Source: Actinomadura sp. DC4 (GTDB lineage: Bacteria > Actinomycetota > Actinomycetes > Streptosporangiales > Streptosporangiaceae). Taken from it: 64,000 nucleotides of DNA. Shown in pieces: positions 26,021 to 31,962 of this stretch. Position 1 is the stretch's first letter. Each line of letters opens with the position of its first letter. The notes under the pieces are model-generated. The model saw only the letters and a program-made list of their open reading frames with translations. It searched no databases and had not been told where the DNA came from. The translations under genes and the position numbers were made by a program. Location of the stretch: assembly GCF_030406325.1 (NCBI RefSeq), contig NZ_JAUEQY010000010.1:1-64000 (forward strand), written 5' to 3'.

Positions 26021-26968
26021 ATGGTCCGCGTCGCGGTGCTGGACGACTACCAGGGCGTCGCCGCCGAGATGGCGGACTGGACGGGCCGGCTGCCCGGCGC
26101 GGAGGTACGGTTCTTCACCTCGCACATCGCCGACCCTGACGCCCTGGTGGCCGAGCTCGCGCCGTACGAGGTCATCGTGGCGATGCGTGAGCGCACCCCC
26201 TTTCCGGCGGAGGTCCTGGCCCGGCTGCCACGGCTGCGGCTGCTGGTCACGACGGGCATGCGGAACGCCTCGATCGCGCTCGACGCCGCCCGCGATCGCG
26301 GCATCGTGGTGTCGGGCACGCGTGGCCTGCCTGGGGGCACGTCCGAGCTGACCTGGGCGCTCATCCTCGGCCTGGTCCGCGGCGTCGCGGCCGACGACGC
26401 GCGGATCCGTACGGGCGGCTGGCAGGAGTCCGTCGGCCTGGACCTGGCGGGCCGGACGCTGGGCGTCGTGGGCCTGGGCCGGCTGGGCGCACGGGTTGCG
26501 AGGGTCGGCCTCGCCTTCGAGATGAACGTGATCGCCTGGAGCCCGAACCTCACCGAGGAACGCGCCGCCGAGCACGGCGTCACCCTGGCCACGAAGGAGA
26601 CGCTGTTCGCGTCGGCCGACATCGTGACCCTGCACGTGGTGCTGAGCGAGCGCAGCCGTGGCCTGGTCGGCGAGCCTGACCTCCGGGCGATGAAGCCGAG
26701 CGCCTACCTGGTCAACACCTCACGCGCCGGCCTGGTCGACACGGACGCGCTGGCCCGCGCGCTGTCCGAGAAGTGGATCGCGGGCGCGGGCCTGGACGTC
26801 TTCGACGTCGAGCCACTGCCGTCCGACCACTGGCTACGCACCTCTCCGCGTACGCTGCTTTCCCCGCACATGGGCTACGTGACCGAGGGCGGCTACCGCG
26901 TGTTCTACGAGGACGCGGTCGAGGACATCGCCGCGTTCCTGGGCGGAGATCCCGTAAGGACCCTGTGA
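26021..26968 (+). CDS. D-2-hydroxyacid dehydrogenase
   Basis: The 315-residue NAD-dependent dehydrogenase has the family layout: an N-terminal substrate domain (MVRVAVLDDYQGVAAEMADW), the Rossmann motif TLGVVGLGRLGARVAR near 145-160, the NTSRAGLVD segment with the catalytic arginine region, and the late LLSPHMGYVTEGG with the catalytic histidine. It reduces 2-keto acids or oxidises D-2-hydroxy acids. The ATG at 26,021 has GGGAGGA upstream. It lies 112 bases before the amyloid-motif gene pair. Confidence 0.92.
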   Translation: MVRVAVLDDYQGVAAEMADWTGRLPGAEVRFFTSHIADPDALVAELAPYEVIVAMRERTPFPAEVLARLPRLRLLVTTGMRNASIALDAARDRGIVVSGTRGLPGGTSELTWALILGLVRGVAADDARIRTGGWQESVGLDLAGRTLGVVGLGRLGARVARVGLAFEMNVIAWSPNLTEERAAEHGVTLATKETLFASADIVTLHVVLSERSRGLVGEPDLRAMKPSAYLVNTSRAGLVDTDALARALSEKWIAGAGLDVFDVEPLPSDHWLRTSPRTLLSPHMGYVTEGGYRVFYEDAVEDIAAFLGGDPVRTL

Positions 26969-27080
26969 TCCGTTCCCGTGGCATGGCCGTTCCGCGATAA
27001 AACCGATCTTTGAGTTGTTCTATTACACTTGGTGTCACGCGCTCAACGGAGCGTAGAAGTCGTCTCAAAGGTGGCGGCTC

Positions 27081-27476
27081 ATGGATCCTGTGCAACTGGC
27101 GGGCGCGGCGGCGGCTCTCTTGGCGGCCAGTGGCGGGGAGGCCGTTGCCGAGGCGGTCGGAAAGCGCGCTTGGGCGGAGATTTCCCAGCTCAGGGCACTT
27201 GTCGGTCGTCGCCTGACACATCATTCCGGTGACGAGAGGGCGCTCGAACGTGCCCAGCGGACGCCGGCGAAAAGTGACGACGTTCAACGCCTCGCGGACA
27301 TCATCCGGCGGCTCGTCGAAGATGATCCGGAATTCCGTGCAGAACTCAATTCCCTCGTCAGCGCGGCCGGAAAAGACTCCGCTTTTCACCCCATACTCGT
27401 GCAGCTGGCCGGTGGGGCCGAGATCGGGAAGCTGACGATATTCAATGGCCCGGTCAGCGGGGACATCTCCTTCTGA
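27081..27476 (+). CDS. Small helical protein with C-terminal beta (amyloid-type) motif; Bell-like effector candidate
   Basis: The 131-residue protein has two parts. Residues 1-~100 are helical: a hydrophobic, alanine-rich N-terminus (MDPVQLAGAAAALLAASGGE) and an amphipathic segment (DVQRLADIIRRLVEDDPEFR). The last 20 residues (112-131) are glycine- and beta-rich with the pattern GAxIGKLTI...GDISF. The next protein begins with the same pattern. Helical domain plus C-terminal repeat motif is the layout of bacterial Bell-domain proteins, proposed membrane-active effectors seeded by partners through amyloid signalling motifs. Codons such as AAT, ATA, GAT and TTT are more frequent than in neighbours, suggesting acquisition. 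No membrane effect is proven. The ATG has AAGG upstream. Confidence 0.7.
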   Translation: MDPVQLAGAAAALLAASGGEAVAEAVGKRAWAEISQLRALVGRRLTHHSGDERALERAQRTPAKSDDVQRLADIIRRLVEDDPEFRAELNSLVSAAGKDSAFHPILVQLAGGAEIGKLTIFNGPVSGDISF

Positions 27477-27486
27477 GAGGGGGAGC

Positions 27487-28626
27487 ATGCACGAACAACG
27501 GCCGGTCAGCCTCGCCATCGGCGACGGCGCCGTCATCGGCAAGATCGCCATCGTCGGCACCGCCCTCGGCGATGTGGTCGTCGAGCGTGCCGACGGCGAC
27601 GAGACGGAGATGAACCGCCGCCAGCTCCTGCGCCGCATCTCGTCCGGCCTCGGCCTGGGCGTGAGCGTCGCCTCGATCGAGGCGGTCGACTCCCTGCGTA
27701 CGGTCGCCGAGGCCACCATCGAGCGCGGGGCCCTCTCGCCGCAGGTCCTCGACTCCTGGGAACACCGGATCAACGAGCACGTGCACGACTACGCGACCAG
27801 ACCGGCCCGAGAGTTACTCCAGGACCTGATCATCGACTTCTCCGATCTGCAGGCGCTGCTCGACCGCTGCCGTTCACCGCGTACGGGCAAGATCCTGGTC
27901 CACCTGCTCGGCCGGGCCGCGGCGGTCATCGCGGTCGTCATCGACGACCTCGGCGCCACGCGTACCGCCCGCTCCTGGATGCGCACGGCCCGTACGGCGG
28001 CCGTCGAAGCCGGTGACCGGCCGCATGTCGCATGGACGCTGGCCCGGGAGGCGTTCTTCCTCCTGCACTACGGCCACTCGGGCCGTTCGGCCCTGGAGAT
28101 GAGCCGGGCCGCGACGGCGGCGGCACGGGTGACCTGGTCGGCGCGGGTCATGGCACCGACCGTGGCGGCACGGGCACACGCCCGTCGCGGGGCCACACAT
28201 GAGGCCATCGCCGCACTCGACGAGGCGGACCGCGCCTTCGAACACCTGGGGGCGGAAGCGACACAGGGGCTGTTCGGGTGGAGTTACCGGCAGATGACGT
28301 TCAGCGCGGGCAAGGCGCTGACGACCCTCGGCGAGACCCGTCGGGCGCTCGCCGCCCAGGATCGGGCACTGGCGCTGTTTCCCGCCGAGGAGGTCCTGGA
28401 CCCGGCGTTGATCCGTCTCGACCGGGCCCAGGCACTCATCCGGGCCGGTGACGTCACCGAAGGCTGCCGGTTCGGCGCCGACACCCTGCGCGGGCTCCCG
28501 CCGGCGTTCCACTCGCCACTGATCGTGAGCTGGGCGGAGGAGGCGCTGAGCGTGGTGCCTCGTGTTCGTCGTGGTGTGGAGGTGGCGGATTTTCGCGCCG
28601 CGCTGGCGGGGGTCAGCGTGGGTTGA
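27487..28626 (+). CDS. TPR-like protein with N-terminal beta (amyloid-type) motif; partner of the Bell-like protein
   Basis: The product has 379 residues. Residues 14-32 carry GAxIGKIAI...GDVVV, matching the end of the upstream protein with a one-residue gap. A basic NRRQLLRRIS segment at 43-52 follows, then a long helical region with tetratricopeptide-like pairs (ARAHARRGATHEAIAALDEA, LGETRRALAAQDRALALFPA). This helical part resembles that of actinobacterial XRE-TPR regulators, but the DNA-binding HTH is absent and the beta motif stands in its place. No NB-ARC or other NTPase domain is present. The ATG lies ten bases after the upstream stop with a G-rich Shine-Dalgarno, so the pair is an operon. 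It overlaps the convergent dehydrogenase gene by 14 bases. Confidence 0.7.
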   Translation: MHEQRPVSLAIGDGAVIGKIAIVGTALGDVVVERADGDETEMNRRQLLRRISSGLGLGVSVASIEAVDSLRTVAEATIERGALSPQVLDSWEHRINEHVHDYATRPARELLQDLIIDFSDLQALLDRCRSPRTGKILVHLLGRAAAVIAVVIDDLGATRTARSWMRTARTAAVEAGDRPHVAWTLAREAFFLLHYGHSGRSALEMSRAATAAARVTWSARVMAPTVAARAHARRGATHEAIAALDEADRAFEHLGAEATQGLFGWSYRQMTFSAGKALTTLGETRRALAAQDRALALFPAEEVLDPALIRLDRAQALIRAGDVTEGCRFGADTLRGLPPAFHSPLIVSWAEEALSVVPRVRRGVEVADFRAALAGVSVG

Positions 28627-29554
28627 CGACGTTCGTGGGAGTGCCGCCCAGGAAGGCCGCCACGTTCGCGACGCAGGTGTCGCCCTTGCGGCGCAGTGCC
28701 TCCGTGGTGTTGAAGCCGATGTGCGGAGTCAGGAGCACGCCTGGCGCGGAGGTCAGCCGGTCGTCGGGGTAGTGGATGTCATCGAGCGCGGCGCCGGCCA
28801 GGTGGCCGTCGCACAGGGCGTCGGCCAGTGCCCGCTGGTCGACCAGGCCGGCTCGCGCGGTGTTGATGAGATACGCTCCGGCGCGCATCGCCGCGAGCTC
28901 ACGCCGTCCGATCAGCCCCCGCGTCGCGGGCGACAGCGGGGTGTGTAGCGAGACGACGTCGCTCTCTGCGAGAAGCGCGCCGAGGGGGCGGAACTCGACG
29001 CCGAGGTCGCCGGCCCGCCGGCCCGACATCGTGCGAGCGCACGCGAGGACGCGCATGCCGAAGGTCCCGGCCAAACGGGCGACCTCGGAGCCGATGTCGC
29101 CGATGCCGACGAGCCCCAGAGTCCTGCCGGCGAGTTCGATGCCCTCGAAGCCGCGCCAGGTGTATTCGCCCGACCTGATGCTGCGGTCCGCCGTCACGAG
29201 ATGGCGGGTCAGCGCAAGCAGCAGCCCGATGGTGAGCTCGGCGACGGCCCGGCCGGCGTACGCGGGGACGTTCGCGATCGTGACGCCGTGCCGTGCGGCG
29301 GCGCCGACGTCGACGGAGTCGTGGCCGGTGGCCCACACCGAGATCATTCGCAGCCTCGGCAGGCGCCGGAACACCTCACCGTCCAGCACCGTCCAGCCGA
29401 CGATCACAACGTCGGCGTCGGCGGACCGGGCCACCACCTCCTCGATGCCACACGGGCCCTCGGAGTAACCGGTCACCTCGCCGAGGGAGTCGAGCCGTTC
29501 GCGGTGCCGGTCACTGAACTCGACCTCGTCGAGGATCACGATCTTCACGCTCAC
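28613..29554 (-). CDS. D-2-hydroxyacid dehydrogenase
   Basis: The 313-residue protein is of the same superfamily as that at 26,021. It shows a Rossmann motif (TLGLVGIGDIGSEVARLAG), NTARAGLVDQRALADAL and LTPHIGFNTTEALRR with the catalytic histidine. It is only distantly similar to the other copy, so it is a paralogue rather than a recent duplicate. The GTG at 29,554 has GGAGG upstream; a second GTG two codons later is also possible. Its 3' end overlaps the TPR-like gene, so transcription of the two interferes. Confidence 0.9.
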   Translation of the reverse strand: MSVKIVILDEVEFSDRHRERLDSLGEVTGYSEGPCGIEEVVARSADADVVIVGWTVLDGEVFRRLPRLRMISVWATGHDSVDVGAAARHGVTIANVPAYAGRAVAELTIGLLLALTRHLVTADRSIRSGEYTWRGFEGIELAGRTLGLVGIGDIGSEVARLAGTFGMRVLACARTMSGRRAGDLGVEFRPLGALLAESDVVSLHTPLSPATRGLIGRRELAAMRAGAYLINTARAGLVDQRALADALCDGHLAGAALDDIHYPDDRLTSAPGVLLTPHIGFNTTEALRRKGDTCVANVAAFLGGTPTNVVNPR

Positions 29555-29655
29555 GGCCGCCTCCAAGAACGTTGCTCAGAGTCGTTATACACATACGCAC
29601 CGGAGCGGGAGGGTGTCGTTGTGCACGGGTCGCTCTCTGAGGTGAACGTGGTGAG

Positions 29656-31962
<2,307 letters not shown>

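Follow-up and report, generated by a model that had tools for sequence, protein, structure and literature searches.

Bell/NLR pairs and the present locus

Bacterial amyloid signaling (BASS) links a small effector to the product of a neighboring gene through a motif that both carry. In the account of Dyrka et al. 2020 given in part of a 2021 review (PMC7889193), BASS receptors are NLRs, and membranes are the hypothesized target of the Bell effector. The same part of the review names CHAT and TIR domains as rarer companions of BASS motifs and asks whether signaling amyloids occur in NLR-independent pathways (PMC7889193). An excerpt of a paper on fungal ASMs places the string ARD in BASS2 C-termini (PMC9815663).

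The locus analyzed here lies in a stretch of 64,000 nucleotides from Actinomadura sp. DC4, which is called the window throughout. Like the BASS Bell/NLR pairs, as far as these are covered in the review (PMC7889193 on Dyrka et al. 2020), it has an actinobacterial host and combines a small effector bearing a C-terminal motif with a neighboring gene whose product has the same motif N-terminally, and members of the effector family adjoin NB-ARC genes. In contrast to those pairs, the receptor has neither NB-ARC nor NACHT and carries the TPR domain of the NsdA regulator family, the motif is unlike the common QARDIHG-type tails, and a dehydrogenase is linked. With the NsdA-family HTH-TPR regulators (NF053720) the receptor shares a TPR-like region that exceeds the cut-off in both copies of the locus found; it departs from them in having the motif in place of the HTH and in standing directly after a Bell-like gene. 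By its anatomy, with the motif N-terminal in the sensor and C-terminal in the effector, the pair would be one of amyloid signaling. It is considered moderately probable that the locus represents mobile amyloid signaling without an NTPase, with Bell effector, TPR sensor and dehydrogenase as a three-gene module. The literature searched, to which Dyrka et al. 2020 and its supplement of unclassified pairs did not belong, contained no Bell partner without an NTPase and no linked dehydrogenase. A motif-bearing, NTPase-free Bell partner in two actinobacterial families would provide a concrete and testable case for NLR-independent amyloid signaling.

The gene pair and its shared motif

The Bell-like gene (27081..27476, + strand), recognized by homologue searches, encodes a small protein of 131 aa (P0002), the proposed effector. 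After a gap of 10 nt it is followed by the gene of the NsdA-family TPR protein P0001 (27487..28626, + strand; 379 aa), the proposed receptor. The motif of P0002, GGAEIGKLTIFNGPVSGDISF, comprises residues 111-131 (27411..27473, + strand), aligns with homologue tails and matches the TPR N-terminus; that of P0001, IGDGAVIGKIAIVGTALGDVVV, comprises residues 11-32 (27517..27582, + strand). The first-pass annotation of the window had described both genes with their lengths, the gap and the two motif strings, and re-reading of the sequence reproduced each of these. The proposed match of the gene-1 tail and the gene-2 start was confirmed as well: the last 30 aa of P0002 and the first 45 aa of P0001 reach a BLOSUM62 local score of 46, and shuffling one or the other sequence 20,000 times never gave as much. 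Among the loci compared, this score was attained by none of 625 other N-termini and none of 624 other C-termini; the best foreign C-terminus against the TPR motif was the Bell tail of L068, with 45. The ATG of the TPR gene at 27487 is preceded by a good Shine-Dalgarno sequence, GAGGGGGAG (27477..27485, + strand, read from the sequence), and GC3 is 0.90 in codons 1-41; the N-terminal motif of P0001 is therefore probably translated.

Compared with the tails of other loci, the motif pair of the window is divergent. On a common-tail profile built without the window and without 8 odd-tailed loci, which were left out of all tail profiles, the P0002 tail obtained 4.4 bits, a score matched or exceeded by 15 of 2,000 shuffles; the P0001 N-terminus obtained -0.8 bits, and here 1,206 of 2,000 shuffles did as well or better. 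A weak Hexapep_2 match to P0001 residues 10-31 (E 0.21) calls for caution, for GxxIGK-like strings occur in globular beta-helices too. At the DNA level, a pseudo-repeat of 23 nt (78%) lies inside the TPR motif (window 27512-27567) and encodes LAIGDGAV and IAIVGTAL.

An NsdA-family TPR protein without HTH

P0001 matched the NCBIfam profile NF053720 with E 2.6e-27 and 96.4 bits (cut-off 75) over profile positions 97-430 of 432. The first 96 positions, where relatives carry the HTH, have no counterpart in it, and the motif stands there instead, as had been proposed at first pass. The absence of an NB-ARC, likewise proposed, agrees with the Pfam search at E up to 10, which returned weak matches only, with no NTPase and no HTH among them. 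Relatives of P0001 are present in at least 249 of the 341 genomes of the family sample at E 1e-10 (a lower bound, with 5 candidates scored per genome), the best non-self match being 1.8e-48. The 29 top loci were fetched, 25 of which could be read in frame, and an HTH-like stretch upstream of the TPR region was seen by eye in all 25. For the relatives at L263 and L067 the HTH was found by profile, L263 matching NF053720 from position 34. In PHROGs, a family of transcriptional regulators from phages also matched the TPR part of P0001, at 4.8e-10.

Derivation of P0001 from the C-terminal part of an NLR by loss of the NTPase was considered and rejected: BLASTP against the NB-ARC-TPR receptor at L067 gave E 0.07, and the NsdA profile fits instead. 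Its match to NsdA, its HTH-bearing relatives, the lack of an NTPase and the dissimilarity to the L067 receptor suggest instead that P0001 is a regulator in which the motif took the place of the DNA-binding part.

The Bell-like protein and its relatives

No family of Pfam or NCBIfam exceeded its cut-off for P0002, and PHROGs yielded no match at E 0.01. PADLOC at 0.01 had none either for P0002, P0001, the dehydrogenase or P0003, the TPR protein of the second copy. Used as a single-sequence query (E up to 0.01), P0002 found homologues in at least 90 of 341 family genomes, and the 29-row profile A2 (E up to 1e-4) found them in at least 216 of 345 order genomes. Both counts include the host's own genome and are lower bounds from 12 candidates scored per genome, and the two samples overlap almost completely. 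The 131-aa protein is presumably Bell-type, a name taken from its relatives: 28 aligned homologues with BASS-like tails share 24-34% identity with it, and some of them adjoin motif-bearing NB-ARC genes. Many homologues end in the tail type N-x(3)-G-x-V-x-G-x-V-V-Q-A-R-D-I-H-G-D-I-x-F, and in the alignment of homologue tails the P0002 tail was most alike to those of L067 and L068. Searches of genome contigs gave no match with P0002 as query and matched only Herbidospora solisilvae and Nonomuraea solani with query A3; query A4 found nothing in viral contigs with two patterns and nothing under E 0.2 in the PDB. The N-terminal hydrophobicity of the Bell protein is moderate (KD17 maximum 1.44 in the window and 1.72 in the second copy), which is borderline for membrane insertion. 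The odd codon use ascribed to the first gene at first pass is real, GC3 being 0.70 in it against 0.86-0.95 in seven other genes or stretches measured.

The host genome, of 10.67 Mb, contains a second Bell-like gene at L219 (G000:C56:202390-202761, - strand) with the common tail NTVTGNVRGNVLQARDIHGNITF; no partner was detected within ~4.5 kb per side.

Neighbors of Bell-type loci were studied at 121 loci, namely 120 fetched ones and the window, which are part of all Bell homologue matches. Partners were counted from a 6-frame scan because the gene caller misses low-GC3 genes, the L067 receptor among them. An NB-ARC gene lies within 1 kb at 49 or more of the 121 loci, a lower bound because a single query was used for detection, which left unflagged the P-loop partner of L091 and an 848-aa motif-bearing neighbor of L087. 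At 34 of the 49 the tail motif occurs in the N-terminal part of the receptor. Together with the motif shared in the window, these NB-ARC neighbors support the BASS-like pairing suggested at first pass. Within 1 kb, the window is the only locus with a TPR gene resembling that of P0001, and at 71 of the loci neither kind of gene was detected (5 of the 71 are near a contig end); Bell-type genes that stand alone with an intact tail are apparently common. One of the observations that the first-pass annotation named as refuting the pairing was partly made, since Bell-like genes commonly lack a P0001-like partner. The pair recurs in the second genome described below.

The arrangement of the window, with the receptor gene immediately following the Bell gene in the same orientation, is shared by only four of the NB-ARC loci (L067, L068, L113 and L165). 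L067 belongs to Nonomuraea solani (G175) and L068 to Herbidospora solisilvae (G042), both of the same taxonomic family as the host; their gene order is that of the window, with an NB-ARC-TPR protein as receptor. The shared motif is clear at L067, with a score of 44 that none of 3,000 shuffles reached; at L068 it is weak, scoring 28, with 59 of 3,000 shuffles as high. HTH-bearing TPR genes are located ~2 kb from the Bell gene at L090 and L099. An HTH-TPR regulator, below the entry threshold of the tree discussed next, is also encoded in Nonomuraea solani (L067:3318-4745), where the Bell gene and its NB-ARC-TPR partner lie ~650 nt further downstream.

A second copy in another family

Three IGK-type Bells were compared with 394 class genomes, of which at least 30 match, the host's own included (a lower bound, with 10 candidates scored per genome). 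After the window, the strongest match is in G602, a genome of another family, with E 6.5e-29; the next best is 3.4e-14. The G602 Bell gene ends in the tail ITGNASVGKLVNIGEVTGDVSF and overlaps by 14 nt a TPR gene encoding P0003. This protein of 421 aa carries VSVGDAAAVEKL(X)VIGAVYGDVTV in its N-terminal part, together with an NsdA-type TPR region, and has no HTH. Its identity to P0001 is 46% across 383 aligned positions, which include the motif, and it matches NF053720 with 108.8 bits over profile positions 103-431 of 432; no Pfam family matches it at 0.001. In the short flanks of 29 loci (L231-L259), a P0001-like gene is present at L231 only and NB-ARC genes at three. The threshold of 1e-60 is passed by just two of 35 genomes of the family to which G602 belongs, G602 itself and G494, whose relative (L263) has an HTH. 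A search of the 394 class genomes with the N-terminal 86 aa of P0001 matched P0001 itself and G692, and was insensitive, as G602 was missed. The G692 match was taken as spurious, with no TPR protein there and a minus frame that looks antisense of another gene.

In a tree of TPR regions, from which L040 (1 of 34 rows) was left out, P0001 and P0003, both without an HTH, group as a single clade (100/98) within the relatives. Its placement is rough, since branches in this region are long and the tree program cautions that they may have been joined wrongly, and the position of L263 is meaningless because only 13% of its columns are filled.

The G602 pair scores 41 for its own motif match, with 4 of 3,000 shuffles as good. 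Crossed between the two genomes the scores are 47 and 39, similar to the 46 and 41 of the own pairs, so the motifs of the window and G602 form one motif class with no sign of pair-specific co-variation. The co-variation between partners envisaged in the first-pass annotation therefore does not appear as a pair-specific signal with two pairs.

Several other genes of G602 were noted. Near its module, L260:7452-9353 encodes a trypsin-like protein (weak Trypsin_2, below the cut-off), perhaps a conflict-system neighbor. On L261 (4871-6232; G602:C175) the end of a BTAD-domain protein of the SARP type resembles a Bell protein, with the tail ARKIDIGKQVVFEEEVKVKGNFSF, so that it can be read as a fusion of a transcription factor with a Bell-like effector; the 893-aa gene that follows contains a similar string, GSLRIGTLALFNDTVTAGGGFSI.

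An empty site and a linked dehydrogenase

According to blastn, the segment 26947..29693 (no strand assigned), which holds the Bell, TPR and dehydrogenase genes, has no counterpart in G001, a genome of the same genus. Positions 1-1418 of the G001 locus L226 correspond to window positions 31111-29694, and 1520-2442 to 26946-26024. The terpene synthase gene and the upstream dehydrogenase gene adjoin there, ~100 bp apart, which constitutes an empty site and supports the mobility suspected at first pass. G001 contains no Bell match to P0002, no dehydrogenase at 1e-50 and no close P0001 relative (best 1.4e-39). The flanks are a 2-hydroxyacid dehydrogenase gene (26021..26968, + strand), which occurs without the pair within 1.5 kb in four other genomes of the genus, G001 and three further members, and a terpene synthase gene (29656..31920, - strand), identified by Terpene_syn_C_2 and blastn; both are placed outside the module. 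The pair had been described as lying between two dehydrogenase genes. Both are indeed 2-hydroxyacid dehydrogenases, but the downstream one appears to be part of the module and the upstream one is plain flank.

The proposed third gene of the module (28613..29566, - strand) encodes a D-2-hydroxyacid dehydrogenase-like protein with the Pfam domains 2-Hacid_dh and 2-Hacid_dh_C. It is convergent with the TPR gene, overlapping it by 14 nt in the window and lying 4 nt away from it in G602 (L260), and the two module-linked dehydrogenases are 59% identical. Among 95 relatives of the host, 15 genomes match at 1e-50, its own included. The highest identity in any genome but the host's is 45%, and none of the seven other genomes of the host genus has a match at 1e-50. 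The three genes would accordingly seem to move together, because they are linked at both places and the site is empty in G001. No convincing direct repeats were found around the segment (26940-29720), no promoter in a sigma-70-type scan of 26900-29700, and no plasmid match to P0001 (E limit 1e-20) or the dehydrogenase (E limit 1e-60). Among the genomes searched, the three-gene module was present in two only.

The catalytic triad of D-2-hydroxyacid dehydrogenases consists of Arg, Glu and His. The module-linked protein resembles these enzymes (PF00389/PF02826) in both domains and in the Arg and His columns (R233, H277), which are intact in all seven dehydrogenases compared. It differs from them in the gapped Glu position and in being encoded convergently to an amyloid-motif gene. 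The Glu position is gone in both module-linked dehydrogenases through the same four-residue gap, and is kept in all five chosen others, that is, the upstream neighbor and 4 of the 14 non-self matches, these four resembling the upstream neighbor more. Two PDB alignments of the dehydrogenase put the gap at this position too. The protein also matches an uncharacterized PHROGs family at 4e-38. We know of no Bell system that contains a dehydrogenase without the usual Glu position, and the module would name a third gene for such a system.

Proposed mechanism and alternatives

In the proposed mechanism, the Bell-type effector would be a small helical protein whose C-terminal tail is able to adopt a beta-arch amyloid fold. 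The TPR sensor may derive from an NsdA-type HTH-TPR regulator by substitution of the motif for the HTH. On binding a trigger, the TPR part would expose or cluster the motif, which would then template the Bell tails, and the assembled Bell bundles may act on the membrane and lead to arrest or death of the cell. The nucleus would be built without an NTPase; as the sensor contains none, it would fall to the TPR part or its ligand to bring about clustering. The dehydrogenase-like protein would probably supply or modulate the signal, for example by binding NAD(H) or a 2-hydroxyacid, rather than perform ordinary catalysis; that it binds one of these and reports on it is a guess. Features that speak against an amyloid module are the two instances only, the lack of pair specificity and the divergent motif. 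To these are added the small number of NB-ARC loci arranged like the window (4), the borderline hydrophobicity of the Bell N-terminus, the weak Hexapep_2 match and the long branches around the HTH-less clade. If the substitution is as proposed, HTH domains and amyloid motifs may be interchangeable output modules of TPR sensors.

A bolder form of this mechanism is offered tentatively and is rather doubtful as a whole. It takes the locus as an NTPase-free amyloid death switch, in which a developmental regulator of NsdA type exchanged its DNA-binding domain for an amyloid motif, which spreads as a three-gene cassette and in which the Glu-less dehydrogenase serves as a metabolite or NAD(H) sensor or as a guard. 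The output of a signal that formerly led to transcription would then be a killer protein templated in prion-like fashion.

The main rival makes the TPR protein a brake rather than a triggering sensor: like an antitoxin, it would use the shared motif to cap or sequester the tail of the Bell protein, which would be released once the TPR part binds a ligand. The tight coupling on the same strand (10 nt in the window and a 14-nt overlap in G602) suits such a function, and so does a TPR family named after repressors. On the other hand, the gene order and the motif positions, C-terminal in the effector and N-terminal in the partner, are those of L067, and in such pairs NLR-side motifs reportedly seed the Bell side. 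A brake is regarded as unlikely.

A regulatory pair without cell death is judged improbable. Here the motif would serve as a small beta tag by which a TPR regulator without DNA binding attaches to a scaffold protein that acts, as NsdA does, in development or secondary metabolism. According to the part of PMC7105598 concerned, nsdA negatively affects sporulation and antibiotic synthesis, which accords with this explanation, as does the SARP-type protein with a Bell-like end in L261. It is opposed by the Bell relatives elsewhere that adjoin NB-ARC genes sharing their motif, and by the restriction of the module to two genomes, with an empty site.

Compared with these, templating between the TPR motif and the Bell tail remains the preferred reading. 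A chance match between unrelated neighbors, due to a composition rich in Gly and small hydrophobic residues, is very improbable: the motif is short and P0001 fails to score on the general tail profile, but none of the 20,000 composition-preserving shuffles equaled the match, and G602 carries the same pair in another family with a motif match of its own (41, 4 of 3,000 shuffles).
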